NCBI GenBank assembly: GCA_016213695.1
Contig: JACQZV010000086.1
Coordinates: 1-49,750, forward strand
Reading direction: 5' to 3'
Origin: Acidobacteriota bacterium
GTDB lineage: Bacteria > Acidobacteriota > Vicinamibacteria > Vicinamibacterales > UBA2999
Length of the DNA stretch: 49,750 bases
The notes under the pieces were generated by a model. That model was not told the DNA's origin. It made no database searches and was given only the letters and a program-made list of their open reading frames with translations. Below, piece by piece: positions 3,617 to 41,340 of this stretch; the first letter of the stretch is position 1; every line of letters starts with the position of its first letter. The position numbers and the translations under genes are program-made.

Positions 3617-3630
3617 GAGTCACACGGCGC

Positions 3631-3667
3631 AAGTCACAAGGCCCAGGCAGGCACTCTGCCTTGTGCC
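3631..3667. repeat. Degenerate heptad array with inverted repeat CACAAGGC...GCCTTGTG
   Basis: aagtcac aaggccc aggcagg; IR 3635-3642 / 3658-3665; abuts DGQHR stop (3669). Confidence 0.6.
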
Positions 3668-3668
3668 T

Positions 3669-9494: not shown

Positions 9495-9554
9495 GTTGGA
9501 AACCTCAATACTGAGACCGAGTCGCAATATTAGGCGGCGGGGCGGGGGCGGGTC

Positions 9555-14273: not shown

Positions 14274-14290
14274 GAGGCGATCTTAGATCA

Positions 14291-14332
<42 letters not shown>

Positions 14333-29579: not shown

Positions 29580-31133
29580 ATGTCCCTGACACGGCGCCGG
29601 TTCATGTGGAGCGCCGCGGCGGCGGCGGCCGCCGGCGCCGCCTCGCGCGAGTGGCTGGCGCACGCGCAGGCGCCCGGCGCCCCGGCGGAGGGCCTCTTCC
29701 GCCACGGCGTGGCAAGCGGCGACCCGCTCGCCGATCGTCTGATCCTCTGGACGCGGGTGACACCGGCGGACCTGCGCGCGCCGGCGGCGATCGATGTCGT
29801 CTGGCGGCTGGCCAGCGACGCGCGGCTCGAGGCCGTCGTGGCGCGCGGCAGCGTCCGCACGAGCGCCGAACGCGATTTCACCGTCAAGGTCGACGTCGGC
29901 GGCCTGGAGCCGGGCCGCACGTACTACTATGCCTTCGACGCCGCGGGCCAGCGGTCGCCTGTCGGCCGCTCGAAAACGCTGCCGGCCGGCGCCGTCGATC
30001 GCGTGCGGATGGCGCTCGTGTGCTGCTCGAACTATCCCTCCGGGTTCTTCAACGTCTATCGCTCGGTGGCCAACCGTGCCGACCTCGACGTCGTCGTCCA
30101 CGTCGGCGACTACATCTACGAGTTCGAGAACGGCCGGTACGGCGACGGCAGCGGATTGCTGCGCATTCCGGAGCCGCGCAAGGAAGCCGTCACGCTCGGC
30201 GATTACCGGATCCGCTACGCGACGTACCGCTCGGACCCCGATCTGCAGGAAGCGCACCGGCAGCACCCGTTCATCGCGGTGTGGGACGATCACGAGCTGG
30301 CCAACGACGCCTGGTCGGGCGGCGCCACCAATCACAATCCGGCGCAGGGCGAAGGCGACTGGGCCGTGCGCCAGGCCGCGGCGTATCGGGCCTACCTCGA
30401 ATGGCTGCCGGTGCGCGAGGCGACCGTCCCGGGCATTCGCCTCTACCGCAGCTTCAGGTTCGGCGGGCTGATGGATCTCGTGATGCTCGACACGCGCGGC
30501 CTCCGCGACAAACAGGTGACGACGCCCGCGGCGCTCGGTGATCCCACGCGCTCGATCCTGGGCGCCGCGCAGGAGGCGTGGCTGTTCGACCAGCTGCGGT
30601 CATCGACTGGTGCGGGAACGGCCTGGCGCGTGCTCGGCCAGCAGGTGCTGTTTTCGCGCATGACGCCGCCGGGCTGGCCGGTGCTGTCGAACGACAGCTG
30701 GGACGGATACCCGTCGGCGCGCGATCGCGTGCTCGACTGCCTGGCCGCCGAGCGCGTGAAGGACGTGGCGATCCTGAGCGGCGATTTCCACAGTTCGTGG
30801 GCGCTCGACGTGCCGCGCGACCCGTGGCGGCAGTATCAGGCGTCCTCCGGCGAAGGGTCGCTGGCCGTGGAACTGCTCGCGCCCGCCATCAGCTCGCCGC
30901 CCCTCTTCAGCACTCCCGACCGGAAGCAGCAGGAGCCGCTCCTGCGCACGTTCCTGCCGCACCTGAAGTTCCTCGAGGGCGACAGCCGCGGCTACGTCCT
31001 TATTGATATTTCGCAGAAGCGAATCCAGGCCGACTGGTACTTCGTCCCGACCGTGCTGGAGCGCACCGCAGCCGAGACGCGCGCCGCCGGATTTGTCTGC
31101 GAGCGCGGGACCTCACACCTCGTGCCCGCCTGA
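29580..31133 (+). CDS. phoD: PhoD-like alkaline phosphatase D
   Basis: Tat motif LTRRRFMW; FRHGVASGDPLADRLILWTRVTP; HVGDYIYE; VWDDHELAND; LSGDFHSSW. Confidence 0.95.
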   Translation: MSLTRRRFMWSAAAAAAAGAASREWLAHAQAPGAPAEGLFRHGVASGDPLADRLILWTRVTPADLRAPAAIDVVWRLASDARLEAVVARGSVRTSAERDFTVKVDVGGLEPGRTYYYAFDAAGQRSPVGRSKTLPAGAVDRVRMALVCCSNYPSGFFNVYRSVANRADLDVVVHVGDYIYEFENGRYGDGSGLLRIPEPRKEAVTLGDYRIRYATYRSDPDLQEAHRQHPFIAVWDDHELANDAWSGGATNHNPAQGEGDWAVRQAAAYRAYLEWLPVREATVPGIRLYRSFRFGGLMDLVMLDTRGLRDKQVTTPAALGDPTRSILGAAQEAWLFDQLRSSTGAGTAWRVLGQQVLFSRMTPPGWPVLSNDSWDGYPSARDRVLDCLAAERVKDVAILSGDFHSSWALDVPRDPWRQYQASSGEGSLAVELLAPAISSPPLFSTPDRKQQEPLLRTFLPHLKFLEGDSRGYVLIDISQKRIQADWYFVPTVLERTAAETRAAGFVCERGTSHLVPA

Positions 31134-31137
31134 AACC

Positions 31138-31206
31138 AAGGCACAAGTCACAAGTCACAAGTCACAAAAAAAGATCCCTGGGCCTTGTGACTTGGGCCTT
31201 GTGACT
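31138..31206. repeat. Inverted heptad arrays (AAGTCAC)n / (CTTGTGA)n between convergent genes
   Basis: aaggcac aagtcac x3; right arm cttgtga cttgggc cttgtga; 11-bp IR CAAGTCACAAG 31144-31154 / 31184-31194. Confidence 0.95.
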
Positions 31207-32424
31207 CTACCTCGGCCACCCCGTCTGCGGCAGGCCCGGCGTCACGCGCAGCGCGTTCTGGTAATACACCTTCCGGAGCACCGCGTCGGGCAGCCCCATG
31301 CCGTACAGATTCCAGAACGCGTGGTAGTCGCGGTAGTAGTCGAAGTACTCGTCGGTCGTCTCGAAAACACGCCAGTAGTACGGGAATTCCGCGGGCGCGT
31401 AGGTGTCTTTCCCGAACAGGACCCGGTCCTGGTACTTCATGAAGAAGTCGTGCGCGCCGCGCGGCTGCCGGCCGAGGTCGTACAGGATGGCGGCCACTTC
31501 GAGCACCACGTTCGGATGCTCGTCGAGCAGCCGGCCCGCCAGGCCCAGGTTGTTCGCATGCCAGCCGAAGTGCGCCGCGATGAACCGCGTCTTGGGATTC
31601 TTCGCGAACAGATCGTTCCGCTCGGCCACGAGCTGCTCGAACGTCACCTTGTTCGGATTCAGGTACTGCCGCCGGTCACCGAACAGCGCCAGTTCGAGCC
31701 ACCGCTCGTTGTGCATGTCGGGCTCGTGGAAGAATTCCTGCGGCTCCCCGGTGTGGATGATCACCGGAATGTTCAGCCGCGCGGCCGTCTCCCAGAGCGG
31801 CGTGAGCTCCGGGTCGTTGATCTTCAGGCGGGTGCCGTCCTTCTTCAACGTATCCATGCCGGTCTGCTTGAAGATCTTGAAGCCGCTCGCGCCGCTCTTC
31901 ACGTCGGCCTCGAGCTGCGCCGCGGCCTTTCGCCCGTAGCCCGGCTCCACATCGCGGAAACCGTCGAGGCCGTTGGCGAACAGCGTGAACCGGTCCGCGT
32001 GCTTCGTCGTCCGGATGTACTCGATCTTCTGCTTCAGCTCCGCGCCGTAGCCGCCGCTCAGGTTGTTGAGGGTCCGGATGTTCAGCGCGTCCATTTCCCC
32101 AATCAACTGGTCGAGCGTCTGCGGCGTCGGTCCCGTGTGGCTGTGGATGTCGATGACCGGGAATTTCGCCTTGGGCACCGCGTGCCCGGCGACGACCAGC
32201 GTCGACGCCGGCCGGTAGTCGACGATGCTGGGCACGGGCCATTCGGGCGCCTGGCAGACGCCGACGCGGACCAGGGTGGTACCAGCCGGGCATTCCTCGC
32301 CCGGTTGAATCTGGACGCCACGACCGCGGCCGCGGCCGCCGCGCCCCGGACCCGCCGGTCCCTGCGCCGCCACGACGCCTGCAATGAGAGTGGCGATTCC
32401 GACCATAACAGCGGCACGTCGCAT
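31207..32424 (-). CDS. Amidohydrolase family (TIM-barrel) exported protein
   Basis: Signal peptide; [42 protein letters not shown]. Confidence 0.85.
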
Positions 32425-32461
32425 CAGCCCCGACCTCCTGCTGCTCCATCATAATCGGAGG

Positions 32462-33625
32462 ATGCGAAAGCTGGCCTTCGTGCTTGCGCTCGTGCTCTCG
32501 GCGGCCCCGGAACGGCCCTCGCCCGCCGCCACGGCGGTCGGGCAGGAGGCCGACCTGCTGACCCGCGCGCGGGCCCTGCACCGGCAGGTGCCGCTCATCG
32601 ACGGGCACAACGACTACCCGTGGGCGCTCCGCCAGCACAGCGCCGAGCGCGACCTGAACGCCCTCGACATCCGCATGAGGCAGCCGCGGCTGCACACCGA
32701 TATCGCCCGGCTGCGGGCCGGCGGCGTCGGCGGGCAGTTCTGGTCCGTGTACATCCCGGCGGACATCCGCGGCGCCGACGCGGTTCGTACCACGCTCGAG
32801 CAGATCGACGTTGTGCACCGCATGGTCCGCAAGTACCCCGACACCTTCGACCTGGCGCTGACGGCGGCCGATGTCGAGCGCATCTTCAAGGCGGGCCGGA
32901 TCGCCTCGCTCATCGGCATGGAAGGCGGTCACTCCATCGACAACTCGCTGGCCGTGCTGCGCATGCTGCACGCCTCCGGCGCGCGCTACATGACGCTCAC
33001 CCACAGCGCGAACGTCGCGTGGGCCGACTCCGGCACCGACATGCCGAAGGCGGGCGGGTTGTCCCGCTTCGGCGAAGAGGTCGTGCGCGAAATGAACCGC
33101 CTCGGCATGCTCGTCGACCTGAGCCACACCTCGCCCGACACCATGCGGGACGCGATACGCGTGAGCGAGGCGCCGATCATCTTTTCGCATTCCGGCGCGC
33201 GGGCCCTCACCGATCACGCGCGCAACGTCCCGGACGACGTGCTGCAGTTGCTGCGCGCCAACGGGGGCCTCGTCATGGTGACGTTCGTGCCGGGGTTCCT
33301 CACGCGCGACGGACACGCGACGCTGGCGGATGTGGCCGATCACATGGATCGCGTGCGCACGGTCGCCGGGGCCGATCACGTCGGGATTGGCAGCGACTTC
33401 GACGGCGTCGAGACGCTGCCGGTCGGACTCGAGAACGTGTCGAAGTACCCCGCCCTCACGGCGGAACTGCTGCGCCGCGGATGGCCGGAGAACGACGTGA
33501 AGAAGGCGCTCGGGCTGAACATCCTCCGCGTGATGCGGGGCGCCGAAGCGGTGGCCGCGCGGCTGCGGAAGCAGCGCGAGCCCTCGACCGCCACCATAGA
33601 AGCATTGGACGGCCCGCCGCGATGA
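32462..33625 (+). CDS. Membrane dipeptidase, M19 family
   Basis: [70 protein letters not shown]. Confidence 0.94.
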
Positions 33626-33627
33626 CA

Positions 33628-33687
33628 CGCGACGGCTGAAGCCGCCGCGCTACAGGCACATGTAGCGCGCACGCTTCAGCGTGCGCG
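33628..33687. repeat. REPIN-like doublet: two inverted REP hairpins each preceded by GTAG
   Basis: REP1(-) CTAC 33650-33653 with stem 33628-33636/33641-33649, loop tgaa; REP2(+) GTAG 33662-33665 with stem 33666-33674/33679-33687, loop ttca. Confidence 0.85.
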
Positions 33688-34764
33688 TGCGCGTGGGTTC
33701 ACGAGCTCCGGGTGCCGTGCCGCGAACCGGCGGAGCGGCTCGACCGGCAGCCGCCCGTACACGTCGGTGCCGCTGAAGCTCCACGGCCATCCGCCCAGAT
33801 AGCCGCCGCTCACCGCGAATTCCAGGTACTCCTCGAGCGACGTGGCGGGAGGCGTGACGCCGCCGGGACGCGCGTCCGGGTTGCCGGGGATCTCACCGAG
33901 AATCACCCGCCGCCGCACATCGAGCGCGGACGCCGGCGTGCCCATGATGTCGTCTTCGCGCCCCGGATGCCGCGCGTCCGGATACGAGTGGACCTGCAAC
34001 ACGTCCAGCCCGAGCGCGTCGTCGTCCCAGGCCCACAGGTTGTGCGCCCGCGCGCAGCCGATCGTCGTCAGCACGCCGGGATGCTCGCGGTGCACCAGGC
34101 CGCTCAGCCGGGCCACGAGGTCGGCGACCAGTTCGAACGGCAGGGGATGCGGCACGTCCGGGCTCAGATCGCGCTCCCATTCCTCGATGATGAAGTCCGG
34201 CTCGTTCATGAACTCGTAGGCGGCGACGGCGGCGCCCAGATCGGCGCGCGCGCCGCCCGGGCCGTAGCGGCCGACCAGCGGCGCGAAGACCGAGTCGAAG
34301 AGGCCCTCGCGTCCCGCCTCGGACAGGAGGACGCGCGCGCGCCCCTCGGGCAGCCGCGCCTCGAAGAGCGCGCCCGTCGCCGGATCCGCGATGGCGTGCC
34401 GGAGCCTCCTGAACATCCAGCGATGATCGAGCAGCACGAGGTCGAGACGAATGCCGGCGCCGCGCGCCATGTCGAGCGCCGCGTCGAGGTCGGAGAAGAC
34501 GTACGGATCGAGACCGGCCGGCACGCCGCGATCGTCGTACACGATGCCGGCGCGCCCGTCGCAGAACACGAACCAGCGGACGACGGTGAAGCCGAGCGCC
34601 GCCATCGCGTCGAAATCACGGGCCACGGCCGGCCGCCGCGTCGAGACGCCGAGATGGGATCCCCAGATGCTGGCGCCGAAATCGAGGCCGTAGTAGATCG
34701 TCGTGCCGTCAGCGGACCACGGGTAGTTGCACCCGTGGAGATACGTCACCAGGTCACAAGGCAC
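33676..34764 (-). CDS. Glycoside hydrolase-like (cellulase/GH5-like TIM barrel) protein
   Basis: GCNYPWSADGTTIYYGLDFG...AAYEFMNEPDFIIEEW...LQVHSYPD...ILGEIPGN; start GTG at 34764 or 34749. Confidence 0.75.
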   Translation of the reverse strand: MPCDLVTYLHGCNYPWSADGTTIYYGLDFGASIWGSHLGVSTRRPAVARDFDAMAALGFTVVRWFVFCDGRAGIVYDDRGVPAGLDPYVFSDLDAALDMARGAGIRLDLVLLDHRWMFRRLRHAIADPATGALFEARLPEGRARVLLSEAGREGLFDSVFAPLVGRYGPGGARADLGAAVAAYEFMNEPDFIIEEWERDLSPDVPHPLPFELVADLVARLSGLVHREHPGVLTTIGCARAHNLWAWDDDALGLDVLQVHSYPDARHPGREDDIMGTPASALDVRRRVILGEIPGNPDARPGGVTPPATSLEEYLEFAVSGGYLGGWPWSFSGTDVYGRLPVEPLRRFAARHPELVNPRARAR

Positions 34765-34806
34765 AAGTCACAAGGCACAAGGCTCAAGTCACAACCATAA
34801 ATCACA
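34751..34806. repeat. Heptad array, left flank of four-helix-bundle gene
   Basis: aggtcac aaggcac aagtcac aaggcac aaggctc aagtcac aaccata aatcaca, in register. Confidence 0.95.
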
Positions 34807-35182
34807 ATCGGCGCCGTGCGTTGTGGACGATCTTGCCTAGAATTCGAACAATTTCGTCCGATTCCTGAATGAGTGGATCGAACCTGTCATCAAGGAGATC
34901 GGACTTGCGGCAGACCTGAAGCCGAAATCTCGTTTCCTTGGCTTCTTTCAGCGCGATACGCGTCTTAGCGATGAAATCGGCAATGCTCGACGCGCCATCG
35001 GACTCCTCGTAGTTTGATCCGACGGATGTGCCAGCGGCAAGGATCTGATACGAAAGTGCACGCGCGATCGGGCCGCGGCGATGCAAAAACTGCACAGCGC
35101 GCACGATGTCACACGCGAACACCCCCAGACGTTCGTGCAAATTGTAAGGTTTTTCGCTCGGGACGGAATTTGGTTGCTTCAT
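34802..35182 (-). CDS. Four-helix bundle protein (23S rRNA intervening-sequence protein / S23-like)
   Basis: NLHERLGVFACDIVRAVQFL...ILAAGTSVGSNYEESDGASSIADFIAKTRIALKEAKETRFRLQV. Confidence 0.9.
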   Translation of the reverse strand: MKQPNSVPSEKPYNLHERLGVFACDIVRAVQFLHRRGPIARALSYQILAAGTSVGSNYEESDGASSIADFIAKTRIALKEAKETRFRLQVCRKSDLLDDRFDPLIQESDEIVRILGKIVHNARRRL

Positions 35183-35212
35183 GTACAAGCAAACCGAACG
35201 CCATCCGCCTTT

Positions 35213-35247
35213 CTTGTGACTTGTGCCTTGTGCCTTGTGCCTTGATC
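35213..35247. repeat. Heptad array, right flank of four-helix-bundle gene, inverted relative to 34751..34806
   Basis: cttgtga cttgtgc cttgtgc cttgtgc cttgatc. Confidence 0.95.
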
Positions 35248-35254
35248 CCCCGCG

Positions 35255-38059
35255 TCACCGCCGCAGGAGTTCGAGGTACTTCGCGAGCAGCGGCTGGTAC
35301 GGTCCGGTGTACGCCTTGACGTAGCGGGCGAGCTTGGACTGGTCGGCCGGCGAGACAGCCAGGCGCTCGCGCGTGGCGACGTGGTAGTGCGCGAACACCG
35401 CGGCAAAGAGCGCCGTCTGATCGCCCGGCTGGAGCGCCAGGTGGCGATCGAGCACCGGCAGCGCCTCTGCGTAGCGTCCGCCCATCAAATAGGCCGACGC
35501 CAGCCGCTGCCCGATGTCGTCGTCTGCGGTGTTCCGCTCGTAGGCGGCCTTGAGCACGTCGATGACCGACTCGGTCTGCCCGTCGCGCAGCCGCGCGTCG
35601 GCGAGCAGGAGGTAGACGATCGGCGCGCGCGGCTCGGTGCCGAGCGCCAGCTGCCACACACCCGCCGCGTCGCGGTCGCGGCCGGCGGCCGCGAACGTCG
35701 CGCCAAGATAGAACGCGGCCGGAAAGAACTCGCGCCGCGGCCCGGCGGCGAGCGCCAGCTGCGTGGCCGCCTCGTTCAGCTGCCCCTTGGCGTACCAGTC
35801 GAGCCCCTTGAAGAACGCCGCCGCCGTCTGCTCGCCGGTCGTCAACGCGTCGAGCGCCGCCGCGCCGTAGCGTCCGGCGCGCGCCTCAGCCACCGGACTC
35901 TTCAACGCCGGCGAGGTCTTCTCCACCGCGTCGAGCATCGCATCGAGCAGGTCGCGCCGCAGTGCGACCTTCGGGTCGAACTTTGCCACGGTGCCGCGCA
36001 GAAACGGCACCGGCATGCCGCCGCCGGCCTGGCCGTCGAGAATGAACGGCCGCACGAGCACGCCCGCCACCGTGCCGCCGCGCAGCACCCGCGCGCGCGC
36101 GAGGTAGCGGCCGGGCGGCAGGAGGGAGGGCGAGAGCAGCCCCTGCGCCACCCGCTGCGTGGGCTGAGACCCGGCGATCATCTGCGCGGGCGCGGACAGC
36201 AGCGCCGGGCGATCCTGGTCGTCCGCGATTTCCAGGGTCACGGTCGTGCTCTCCAGCGTGGCGGGCGTCGTCGCATACATCTCGAGAAACGCGGCGACGT
36301 TCCCTGCGACCCGCGGCTCGACGCCCGGTCTGATGCGGCGGCTGCCGTCGCCGCCATCGCCAATCAGCAGATCGCCGAGCGCGAACTCCTCGCCCCCGAG
36401 CTTCCACGCGTTGACGTCGCGAATGATGCCCCCGCGCCGCCCCGCGGCGTCCACGACGCCGAATCGAAGCGAGTAATTGCCCGGCTCCACCAGAATCTCC
36501 GTCAGGTAGTCCCGCGCCGTGTTCGCCTGCCCGTTCGGCACCGAGAGCACGCGCTTGTCGATCGACCCGGAGACGACCTTCCCTTCGCCGTCGAGCAGCA
36601 CGTAGCCGACGGTGTACTCCTCCGGCTCGCCGCCAGGCTGGCCGATATCGGCCGCGACCATGACGCGCGCCTTGTCGCTGGCCGGATCCTTCTGCGTGAA
36701 GGTAGTCAGCCGTACCGGCACCTCGGCGACGCCGAACGGCGACTTCAGCGCGTCCATCAGCGTCTCTTCGGCCTTCCGCCGGGTGGTGGTGGGCGACGAC
36801 AGGACGAAGGCGCGGCGCGACCGGACCGTCACGCCGCGGCGCCGCACCTCCACGTCGATGCGGTGCTGCTTGCCGTCGCGGTCGCCGCGGGCCTCCTCGA
36901 CGCCGAGCATGTAGTACGCCAGCGTCTCCGCCGCGAGCCGGTCGAAGACGGCCTCGCCGGTGCCCGCGATGTAGTAGATCGACCCGCGCGTCGCCCCCGC
37001 GAGATCGCCGAGCCCCTGCACCTGCATGTCGCGGTCCTCGGTCGGCGTCGGCTGCAGCCGGCTGACGGTAATGTCGTGCCGCGGCACGTCGAGGAGCATC
37101 ACGTTGATGGTGACGTGCGCGTACGCCGCCGCGCGGATGACGCCGTCGAGGTCGCTCGGGCTGTCGAGCACCATCCCTTCCGACAGCAGAATCAGCGTCT
37201 TGGGGCCGTCGATGACCGACAGGCCCGCCAGCAGGTCGTACAGCCCGCGCAGCGAGTCGGTGGTGTCCTGGCGGACGCTGCGCACGAGCGAGCTGGCCTC
37301 GCTCAGAACGTCGCGCTCGCACTGCTCGAGCGCGACGCCGGTGAGGCGCGGGCACTCGCGCAGCGCGACCTGCGCGAAGATGCGGCCGTCACTGCGCTCC
37401 GCGATGGCGATCGCCTCATACACTCCGATGGTGAACCTGCCCGACCCGGCCGAGACCTGTTGCCGCCCGACCACGCGCTGCATGGCCTGCTTGAGGCGCA
37501 GCTTGTCGTCCGTAAAGCCGACCTGGATGCCCGGCTCCGGATACGCGATAAACGCGGTGCGATCGGCCGGGCTGAGCTTGTCGAGAAATTTCGCCGCGGT
37601 GTCGAGCAGCGCCCGCGCCCCGCCGAAACGGATGCCGAGCTGATCGACCGCGATGACGAACATCCGGCCGTTCGGCGGCTTCAGGTTGGTCGTGAACAGC
37701 GTCTCGAACGGATCGGCCGCCTCGCGCTTGGCCGCCTCGAGATCGATGCGCACGTGGTCGGCCGACACGACCCGGCGCGGCTCGCCGTCGATCTTGACGA
37801 CAAAGTCGGGCGCCAGCAGATCCTCGACCGGGCGGCCGTTGCCGTTGACCACGGAAACGTCGACGGCAATCACGTCCACGCCCGTGCGGAAGGTGGGGCC
37901 CTGGACGGGCGCGTCGGTCTGCGCCTGGGCGCCCAGCCGCGCGGCACCGGCAGCCAGGACCACTCCAAGGCACAAGGCGCAAGGCGCAAGGCTCAAGGCA
38001 CGGCGAGATGGACCCCTTGTGACTTGTGACTTGGGCCTTGTGACGTGTGTCTTGTCCAT
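35255..38059 (-). CDS. VWFA-related domain protein with C-terminal TPR-like region
   Basis: FRTGVDVIAVDVSVVNGNGRPVEDLLAPDFVVKIDGEPRRV; ATG at 38059; N-terminus encoded by heptad array. Confidence 0.85.
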   Translation of the reverse strand: MDKTHVTRPKSQVTRGPSRRALSLAPCALCLGVVLAAGAARLGAQAQTDAPVQGPTFRTGVDVIAVDVSVVNGNGRPVEDLLAPDFVVKIDGEPRRVVSADHVRIDLEAAKREAADPFETLFTTNLKPPNGRMFVIAVDQLGIRFGGARALLDTAAKFLDKLSPADRTAFIAYPEPGIQVGFTDDKLRLKQAMQRVVGRQQVSAGSGRFTIGVYEAIAIAERSDGRIFAQVALRECPRLTGVALEQCERDVLSEASSLVRSVRQDTTDSLRGLYDLLAGLSVIDGPKTLILLSEGMVLDSPSDLDGVIRAAAYAHVTINVMLLDVPRHDITVSRLQPTPTEDRDMQVQGLGDLAGATRGSIYYIAGTGEAVFDRLAAETLAYYMLGVEEARGDRDGKQHRIDVEVRRRGVTVRSRRAFVLSSPTTTRRKAEETLMDALKSPFGVAEVPVRLTTFTQKDPASDKARVMVAADIGQPGGEPEEYTVGYVLLDGEGKVVSGSIDKRVLSVPNGQANTARDYLTEILVEPGNYSLRFGVVDAAGRRGGIIRDVNAWKLGGEEFALGDLLIGDGGDGSRRIRPGVEPRVAGNVAAFLEMYATTPATLESTTVTLEIADDQDRPALLSAPAQMIAGSQPTQRVAQGLLSPSLLPPGRYLARARVLRGGTVAGVLVRPFILDGQAGGGMPVPFLRGTVAKFDPKVALRRDLLDAMLDAVEKTSPALKSPVAEARAGRYGAAALDALTTGEQTAAAFFKGLDWYAKGQLNEAATQLALAAGPRREFFPAAFYLGATFAAAGRDRDAAGVWQLALGTEPRAPIVYLLLADARLRDGQTESVIDVLKAAYERNTADDDIGQRLASAYLMGGRYAEALPVLDRHLALQPGDQTALFAAVFAHYHVATRERLAVSPADQSKLARYVKAYTGPYQPLLAKYLELLRR
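37967..38057. repeat. Inverted heptad arrays inside the VWFA CDS
   Basis: aaggcac aaggcgc aaggcgc aaggctc aaggcac (37967-38001) and cttgtga cttgtga cttgggc cttgtga cgtgtgt cttgtcc (38016-38057). Confidence 0.95.
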
Positions 38060-38126
38060 CGTCCACCTCGCGACGGGTCGATCACAGAGCAACGGCCGCA
38101 AAAAGGCAAGCGAAACGATGGCGTCG

Positions 38127-41100
38127 CTACAGGCGCCCGCGCGCCTCGGCCAGCTCCGGCAATCCCGGGTCGGCGCCCTTCCAGAGACTGAGGAATCGCT
38201 GGTACTGCTCGCGCGCCGCCGCCCGGTCGCCGGTACGGTCGAGCAGCCGCGCCATCTCGAGCACGTAGCGCGGCTCGAGCATCGACGTCCACTTCTGGCT
38301 GATGTCGGACGTCAGGAGCTGACGATAGATCTCGATGGCACCACCGACGTCGCCGCGCGCCACCCGGACGCGCGCCAGGCCGTCGCGGCACGGCAGGTGG
38401 TTGATGAACGCGGGCCAGTACGAGTCGGGGCCCGAGAGCGGCGGCTTGAAGGCGGGCTGCGCCGCGGTCCAGGCCGTCTCCGCGGCCGCGACATCCCCGG
38501 CCGCCAGCGCAATTTCACCCTCGAGGCAGCGCTGCAGCCAGACGTGATTCATCCGCCGGGCATCGAACACCGTGCGCTGCTGCTCGAGGCGCGTGCGCGC
38601 CGCCGCCAGGTCGCTGCGGCGAACTTCAATCACACCGCCCAGCAGACGAAGCAGCATCTGGGCGTTCGCTCGAGCGTCCGGGTTCGGTACGCCGGGGCTG
38701 GCCTCTTCGGCCTTCTGCACGTTCTGGAGCGCCCGCGCGTAGTCCCGCCGCTCCATCGCGAAGAGCGCCGCCAAATCGAACGCTCTCCCCCGGTTGCCGG
38801 CATCCTGAAACCGATCCGCCAGCGTCTGCCCGTCGCGCAGCCGCTCCTCGGCCTGCCGGTAGCGGCCCACCCTGGACAGAAAGTACGCGGTGGTGACGAG
38901 CGTATCGGTCGAGGGAAGCCCCCCGCGCTGCTCGATCGCCTGCTCCTGGCTGAGCTCCCCGAGCGCCTCGTCGTAGCGTCCCAGCATCCCGTAGCCCCAG
39001 GCTTTGCCGCGGTGCGAGGCCGCGAACGTCGTGTCAAGGGCCAGCGCCTGCGTGTAGACGTCCAACGCCTTCTGCGGCTGCCCGGCCACCAGATACGCTT
39101 CGCCGAGGCTGTCGCGCGGATTCGCTTCCTTCGGGTTGAGACGCGCGTAGGTGTCGAGCTCCCGGATCGCCTCCGGATAGCGTCCGTTGCTGAGCAAGGC
39201 GTACCCGTACGAATTGTGGAGCGGCCCGTAATCGGGCACGGCCTTCACGCCGCGCTCCATGGTGGCGAGGCCCTTCACGCGATCGCGAGACAGGTAAAAG
39301 CGGGCGAGTTCGTCGTACGCTTCCGCCTCGTCCGGATACCGCGCCAGGAGCGACTCCATCAGCGAAATCGCCTTGTCGAAGTCCCCCGCGCGCCGGGCCG
39401 CGCCGGCTTCGGCCATGAGCCGCTGCCGCCCCGGCAGCCGGTCGAGATTCCCGTCCAGCCGCCGGCGGTACTCCTCGGCCGCCGCGTTGTCGCCTGTCTG
39501 CTCCGCAGCCTTGGAGAGGTTGAACCACGCGACGGCGAAGGAGGGATCGAGCCGGACGGCCTCCTCGAGCAGCCTGCGCGCGTCGGCACGGCGCAGGTTG
39601 AATAAGGCCTCCGTGCCTTCGGTAAACAGGCGATACGCTTCCAGATTGCTCGACGTGACTTCGGCCACGCCGCGCGCCGCACCACGGTCGGCGACATTGA
39701 GGTTGCTGCGAATGCGCCCGGCCAGGTTGTCGACGAGGCCGAATAGATCCGCGCCGGAGACGGACTGCGCCAGCAGGATCCGCCCGGTCGCCACGTCCTG
39801 CACGCGGACGTCGATCAGCGTGCTGCCGCCGGCGCTGAAGATGCTGCCCGCCACGAGCGCCCCGGCGCCCGAGCGGCGTCCCACCTCGAGCGCGCGGCCG
39901 GCGTCGAGCGCGCCGCTCGCGCCCAGCCCCTCCACGATCTCCTGGATCCGTTCGGTTCTCACGACATCGAGACCGGGCGTCTGGGCGAGCCCGGTCACCA
40001 GCATGTTCGGAACGCCCTTGGCCAGCCAGGCGTTCTCGCTCGACGCGCCGGGCGCCTCGAACGCGAGCACGGCGATCGACGGACGGCCCGACGCGCCGAT
40101 CCCTTGCGCCGAGCTGTCCGGACGGGAGAAGAAGAATGCCGCCACGCCGATCGCCACGACCGCCACGGCTGCGCCGGCTGCCGCCAGCGGACGGCGGCGG
40201 ACGGCGGCGCCGACTTTCGCAGCGACCGACGTCCCCGGCGACGCGGCGCGGCGACTCCGGCTGCTGCCCTCACGGGCCGCCCTGGCGCGCGACGGCTTGC
40301 GCTCGGCCGGCGGTGCTCCCGCCGGCGCACTGCGGCGCCTCGGGGACGCCGACCGCGCCCGCGGGCCCGCCTCGCGCGCCGGACCGGCGGGACTCGGTGC
40401 GCTCTGGCTGTCGCGCACCAGCCGCCGCAGATCGCCGCGCAGATCGGCAGCGGTCTGATACCGCACGTCACGGTCCTTCTCGATCGCCTTGGCCACGATC
40501 CGCGCCAGCTCGTCGGGCACGTCGGGATTGACGCGGACGACGTCGGCCGGCGCGCTGCGCAGGATCGCATCGAAGATCACGGCGGTGGTGCGGCCGGTGA
40601 ACGCGGGACGGCCGGTCGCCATCTCGTCGAGCACGAGGCCAAGCGAGAACAGGTCGGTGCGCGCATCCCGGTCCTCACCGCGGGCCTGTTCGGGCGACAT
40701 GTAGGCCACGGTCCCGATGGCGATGCCCGGGCTGGTCAACGCCTCGTCCGGGACGCCGGTGACCGCCAGCGCCGACTCTCCTGGCGCGGCAACCGGCGAG
40801 CCGGTCCCGAGCTTCGCGAGGCCGAAGTCGAGGATCTTGGCGTCGCCGCGCGTGGTGACGAAGACGTTGGCCGGCTTGATGTCGCGATGGACGATCCCCT
40901 TGGCGTGCGCGGCGTCGAGCGCGTCGGCCATCTGCGCCCCGAGCAGGAGGACCTGCGGGACCGGCACCGGACGGTCGGCGATGAGCTGCTTGAGCGTCTG
41001 CCCCTGCAGCAGCTCCATCACCATGAAGTGCCGGCCCTCGTGGGTGCCGATGTCGTAGATGGTGCAGATGTGAGGGTGATTCAGTGCCGAGGCGGCGCGC

Positions 41101-41298: not shown

Positions 41299-41340
41299 GG
41301 CTTTGGGCTTTGGGCCTGGGGCCTGGGGCCTGGGGCCTTA
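41299..41340. repeat. Heptad array ggctttg x2 / ggcctgg x3 / ggcctta
   Basis: Six in-register 7-mers; last one contains the stop codon of the aconitase-family gene. Confidence 0.95.

Follow-up and report, generated by a model that had tools for sequence, protein, structure and literature searches.

The S23 gene of the window and the two inverted arrays of short tandem repeats that flank it are probably parts of one mobile element, a bacterial counterpart in form of foldback elements, as judged from sequence comparisons within and between genomes. The window, the whole 49,750-nucleotide stretch that was analysed, is taken from contig JACQZV010000086.1 of an Acidobacteriota bacterium. The element is composed of the gene, two arms and a putative promoter box:

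34802..35182, minus strand: S23 / four-helix-bundle gene (TIGR02436, PF05635), 126 aa, assigned by profile matches, AlphaFold2 and Foldseek
35213..35244, minus strand: 5′ arm, (CAAGGCA)n on the minus strand, about 4.6 units of 7 nt, called by TRF
34745..34794, minus strand: 3′ arm, an inverted copy of the 5′-arm heptad, called by TRF
35188..35203, minus strand: sigma-54-like −24/−12 box TGGCGTTCGGTTTGCT, 6 nt from the S23 ATG

The open reading frame runs on the minus strand from an ATG at 35182 to a stop codon inside 34802-34804. The 5′ arm stops about 30 nt short of the ATG, and a degenerate copy of the heptad contains the stop codon. TRF reports the arms as (CACAAGG)n at 34745-34794 and (CTTGTGC)n at 35213-35244, and the two are mutually reverse-complementary with a local score of 25. 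The first-pass annotation had placed an S23-like gene between inverted (AAGKCAC)n arrays, and both its coordinates and its description are confirmed by the TRF calls and the arm score. The element is found between protein genes, not inside a 23S rRNA helix, and Rfam gives no match across positions 31000-38200 of the window.

The protein passes the curated cut-offs of both PF05635 (52 bits, cut-off 33.8) and TIGR02436 (73 bits, cut-off 24), which places it in the S23 / TIGR02436 family. Its AlphaFold2 model contains four helices (mean pLDDT 91.7), and Foldseek and the profile match assign it the fold of the solved S23-family structures 2RLD and 2GSC, the latter being XCC0516 of Xanthomonas campestris. 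Both structures were determined from crystals with five chains each. A more distant likeness (TM about 0.7) is seen to Avd of the diversity-generating retroelements, a similarity that would fit a spread of the element driven by reverse transcriptase. However, no RVT_1 match was obtained in the window's genome or in the S23-rich genomes G001, G005, G006, G008 and G019; involvement of a reverse transcriptase was therefore rejected and is regarded as hardly credible. In the profile search PF05635 is the sole domain of the window protein, with no Y1/HUH domain, and no recognised nuclease, transposase or other catalytic domain is present in S23. Nor is a DDE transposase gene located inside the element itself. 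Lacking any recognised nuclease or transposase domain, S23 probably does not perform the cutting step itself.

The bracketing seen in the window is general. The window's own genome carries four PF05635 genes, and each of them lies between inverted arrays of short tandem repeats, with a different unit each time: GGGCAGT (L001), GGRTCGTTC (L002), GGTTCACG/GGTGCTCG-like (L003) and AAGKCAC in the window. A further 80 S23 loci were sampled from 17 genomes of the window's family, and arms were scored by local alignment of the upstream 300 bp with the downstream 300 bp in reverse complement, with a threshold of at least 16. This score is reached at 57/83 S23 loci of the family (69%), leaving about a third below it, as compared with 4/3227 control positions within the same loci (0.12%), 3.6% when the flanks are compared in direct orientation, and 0/391 ordinary ORFs. 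Outside the family, a scan of named genomes yielded 71 S23 loci, 68 of them usable (L194 duplicates L099), and 43 of the 68 reach the threshold versus 1/915 control positions. Inverted arms are observed in Planctomycetota (13/16), Bacteroidota (5/6) and Chloroflexota (4/5), and bracketed S23 genes are also present in Acidobacteriota, Alphaproteobacteria, Fibrobacterota and Gemmatimonadota. Among plasmid S23 genes (cyanobacterial and Gemmatirosa), 7/10 have inverted arms scoring at least 16, including a bracketed gene between nrdB and nrdA in Nostoc edaphicum. In Anabaena 90 and Pseudanabaena (L303, L310), inverted arrays flank an S23 gene that lies between cas6 and cas4. A genome may hold up to 17 S23 copies, and no relatives were found in viral contigs. 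The enrichment anticipated at first pass is thus borne out, as is the flanking of S23 by inverted arrays; the heptad, to which importance had been attached, is not special, as the unit differs from copy to copy and measures roughly 7 to 18 bases.

Several observations were made alongside these surveys. One named contig, VFYY01000050.1 (L194), is titled Acidimicrobiia and shares its S23 locus with G036, a member of the window's family; the nearest named relative after it, L195, bears the title Acidobacteria, and the title of L194 may be wrong. At L040, L084 and other loci the contig ends within about 100 bp of the S23 gene, so short-read assemblies are probably broken by these elements, and counts of them are probably too low. 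In one S23 subfamily (L056, L060, L061 and L069), the array unit is not a heptad but an 18-mer resembling CGGGAGGGCACTGCTTGT or CGGGGCGGCACTGCTTGA. Around rimM (L132, 18629-19233), two inverted arrays have a polarity opposite to that of S23 elements and were taken as chance.

The arrays have a constant polarity. In the window's family the G-rich strand points to the S23 gene from either side in 58 cases versus 2, and in other genomes in 37 versus 4; the window copy, judged by base count, is an exception. Common periods are 7, 8, 9, 10, 14 and 18. The 3′ array often starts no later than the S23 stop codon, and most 5′ arrays of the family end far from the ATG, often 120-150 nt away. At most family loci a sigma-54-type box resembling TGGCAC-N5-TTGCW lies between the 5′ array and the ATG, 13±1 nt from the latter. 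Such boxes are found at 73/81 S23 genes and 18/20 RAYT genes, whereas random positions have them in 7% of cases and ordinary ORFs in 9%. A weak upstream motif, GCAG-N3-CTGC with at most one mismatch, accompanies 26/81 S23 genes versus 12% and shows no significant enrichment near RAYT genes. The window copy has no space for the upstream motif found in relatives, and use of its box is uncertain because that box is 6 nt from the ATG, not 13±1 nt as in most relatives. The common box suggests that, in the window's family, two repeat-associated systems may be under common control; the presence of RpoN does not discriminate, since RpoN is nearly universal.

A shared promoter would also be in keeping with mobilisation of the S23 element in trans by a Y1/RAYT transposase, with S23 as an accessory protein such as a chaperone or repressor. 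Inverted repeats flank both kinds of gene, and Y1 genes are present in 28/31 S23 genomes versus 4/12 S23-free genomes (p=4e-4). However, genome G018, which is 98% complete, contains five S23 genes and arrays and no Y1 match, the flanks of RAYT genes are REP-like palindromes rather than tandem arrays, and in the named-genome scan a search for the sigma-54-like box near S23 genes of other phyla came up empty in most cases. Mobilisation by a RAYT in trans is thus considered unlikely.

Comparison of orthologous sites bears on whether the foldback-like element moves. At the cdd-mtnA site G000, G034, G036 and G026 carry an S23 element; in G019 and G020 it faces the other way. Wherever the arms were read, the element of each genome has its own unit, and that unit is found on both arms. 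In G035, a congener of G034, the cdd-mtnA gap is 26 bp long and contains neither array nor S23 gene; G001 has a solo array at the site, and G028 and G023 have a short gene-less inverted pair. Both element orientations are also observed at a second site (L041 and L059 versus L095), and the element of L081 has an empty counterpart in L090. Taken together, the site comparisons indicate that gene and arrays are gained or lost as one, that the two arms change in concert and that sites are reused. As the relatives compared are different species, deletion is possible in any single empty-site case, and a target-site duplication is not definable, with array ends that vary between copies and a G035 empty site that is too diverged. 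The search for empty sites in close relatives that the first-pass annotation had proposed has a positive outcome in G035, and its reading of an autonomous element with non-autonomous copies gains support from this congeneric empty site, from the two orientations at one site and from the dispersal of cognate units described below.

The site comparisons also bear on a role of the arms in RNA. RNA pairing between the arms of the S23 element has a z of -3.75, and fold-back of the arms could explain their homogenisation. Arms that pair in the transcript are likewise expected of an RNA-processing or insulation cassette, in which RNase III would cut the arm stem and free the S23 message or the operon, the spread of arrays being secondary. 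Precedent is provided by the 23S rRNA intervening sequences, whose gene is S23 and which RNase III excises via a 28-bp terminal stem (PMC4990558), and S23 elements are located inside operons. Such processing leaves unexplained, however, the numerous solo unpaired arrays and the two orientations at one site, and it is judged an improbable account of the element.

In addition to the arms, gene-less arrays are dispersed through the window and its genome. The window contains four inverted pairs of its own S23 heptad and one solo array with the unit of another S23 element:

31137..31206, no strand: gene-less inverted pair (non-autonomous form) of the window S23 heptad, loop of 11 nt
37966..38054, no strand: gene-less inverted pair of the window S23 heptad with a 13-nt loop
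9553..9621, no strand: gene-less inverted pair of the window S23 heptad, degenerate
3617..3668, no strand: gene-less inverted pair of the window S23 heptad, degenerate
14289..14331, plus strand: solo (GGGCAGT)n array, the unit of another S23 element of the same genome, on contig C190 (L001)

The window heptad has 57 exact 21-mer matches in its own genome versus a total of 5 across 42 related genomes. It had been noted at first pass that the heptad recurs at loci without the gene; this holds, with hairpins at 31137-31206 and at 37966-38054, plus two weaker examples near 3617 and near 9553. Arrays of the own genome, surveyed in a 310 kb sample with genome-wide counts made by pattern, are mostly solo, and gene-less short inverted pairs account for some of them. 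Elsewhere in the window, at 41299-41338, a GGCTTTG array is followed directly by a GGGCCTG array, two adjacent arrays with different units.

Across genomes, arrays are concentrated where their cognate S23 gene is found. The array 12-mers of 66 elements occur at a mean of 464 per Mb in the own genome versus 36 in other carriers (Wilcoxon p=7e-5), and at 15 per Mb in S23-free genomes. Heptad G-run hits per whole genome have a median of 44 in 31 S23-positive genomes versus 0 in 12 S23-negative genomes (p=3e-5). The first-pass annotation had regarded array-rich genomes without S23 as damaging to its reading; these are mostly absent, with two clear exceptions. In G010, arrays accompany an internally deleted copy that has kept its arms, a 39-residue S23 remnant still lying between inverted (GGGGCTG)n arrays, and in G013 arrays are sparse and no S23 was found. 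G021 and G027 possess S23 and have zero heptad G-run hits, in a count that covered heptads only. The element of L106, used as a query, gives about 135-140 matches in its own genome G040 and the congener G042, a few of them being flank, and no array match in the congeners G038 and G041, both without S23, or in G039; no two-sided empty site was found with this query in the S23-free congeners. At one intergenic site of two congeners, an inverted CACGAAG hairpin in one is replaced by an unrelated solo GGTGC array in the other (L106 780-980 / L112 1340-1450).

The array unit also follows the protein. With orthologous-site pairs left out, the more alike two S23 proteins are in identity, the more alike their arrays tend to be in 5-mer content (Mantel r=0.33, 0/2000 permutations as high, p<0.0005); the result is unchanged for between-genome pairs only, and the far-flank control, DNA 900-1200 bp away, gives r=-0.01. 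As far as sequence can tell, S23 gene and arrays belong together over time; the correlation may reflect joint travel of the two instead of binding. These data weigh on the view that S23 is a passive passenger that merely sits in, or inserts into, heptad arrays generated by slippage for unrelated reasons. Slippage-prone heptads are known without a link to any protein (PMC4692102), and the majority of own-genome arrays are solo. A passenger would not account for an array unit that tracks the S23 protein, the fixed polarity, the scarcity of arrays where S23 is missing, the lack of bracketing at the 391 ordinary genes or the array-free empty site of G035, and this view is given little credence.

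For the foldback-like element, a plausible route of spread can be outlined. A pentamer of S23 would bind the array of its own element in folded form, either as RNA or as single-stranded DNA. Together with host replication or repair enzymes, it would seed arrays at new intergenic sites, often directly after stop codons. Slippage would then alter array length, and fold-back template switching would keep both arms alike as units drift between loci. Gene-less copies would survive as hairpins and solo arrays. The sigma-54-like promoter, common to RAYT genes in the window's family, probably turns S23 on. Since S23 has no recognised catalytic domain, no reverse transcriptase was found in the genomes searched and G018 has S23 and arrays with no Y1 match, S23 is favoured as the array-binding component, and host enzymes would perform the cutting and copying.

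Gene and repeats together appear to be a mobile element of a new kind, and the proposal would provide a testable role for S23, a widespread orphan family with two solved but unexplained structures. The ends of such a mobile element would have a different sequence in each copy, which would require recognition either to depend on structure or to evolve jointly with the S23 protein. S23 elements may be the source of many bacterial heptanucleotide repeats, the intergenic repeats of cyanobacteria and Xanthomonas being candidates. S23 (23S_rRNA_IVP) genes have been reported in cas loci (PMC3936711), and because the two S23 genes between cas6 and cas4 bear inverted arrays, their presence there may, more simply, represent insertion rather than a CRISPR function. 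The chances appear evenly balanced for a wider proposal, namely that S23 genes of many phyla form the core of a large, unrecognised class of transposase-free mobile elements with fast-evolving, copy-specific array ends, that S23 pentamers recognise their own array and that the orphan heptads of Xanthomonas, Nostoc and other bacteria are non-autonomous offspring. No paper linking S23 to these arrays was found in a literature search whose scope excluded subscription papers and preprints.

Similar to REPIN/RAYT systems, S23 elements comprise a protein gene within repeats, gene-less inverted pairs and singlets dispersed in intergenic DNA, and a repeat type that matches the protein; cognate inverted doublets are present, with solo arrays in the majority. 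Unlike RAYTs, S23 has no Y1/HUH domain, its repeats consist of units of roughly 7 to 18 nt arrayed in tandem and not of one REP palindrome, and it is multi-copy. The likeness drawn at first pass thus stands for the autonomous and non-autonomous logic, and S23 itself is not a RAYT. The 23S rRNA intervening sequences of Coxiella, Leptospira and others, long suspected to be mobile-element remnants (PMC4990558), also enclose an S23 ORF within terminal inverted repeats that can pair into a long stem. They differ in their insertion into a 23S rRNA helix, whereas window-type elements lie between protein genes, have tandem arrays as arms and have dispersed gene-less copies. Avd shares the four-helix-bundle pentamer fold; its retroelements differ in their reverse transcriptase, which the RVT_1 search did not find in the window's genome. 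The foldback transposons FB, Galileo and Tetris have long terminal inverted repeats made from tandem subrepeats that expand and contract, as well as gene-less derivatives, and terminal inverted repeats built from tandem subrepeats are found in S23 elements too. The S23 element differs from them in being bacterial and about 0.5 kb long, in having no transposase of its own and in having a different subrepeat in each copy. Finally, the heptanucleotide repeats of Xanthomonas and Nostoc (PMC4692102) and the cyanobacterial STRRs are likewise dispersed, intergenic and G-rich, with convergent inverted pairs in Xanthomonas. The report on the Xanthomonas and Nostoc repeats proposed no partner gene and did not mention S23 as a link (PMC4692102), whereas in the present analysis S23 is the associated gene.
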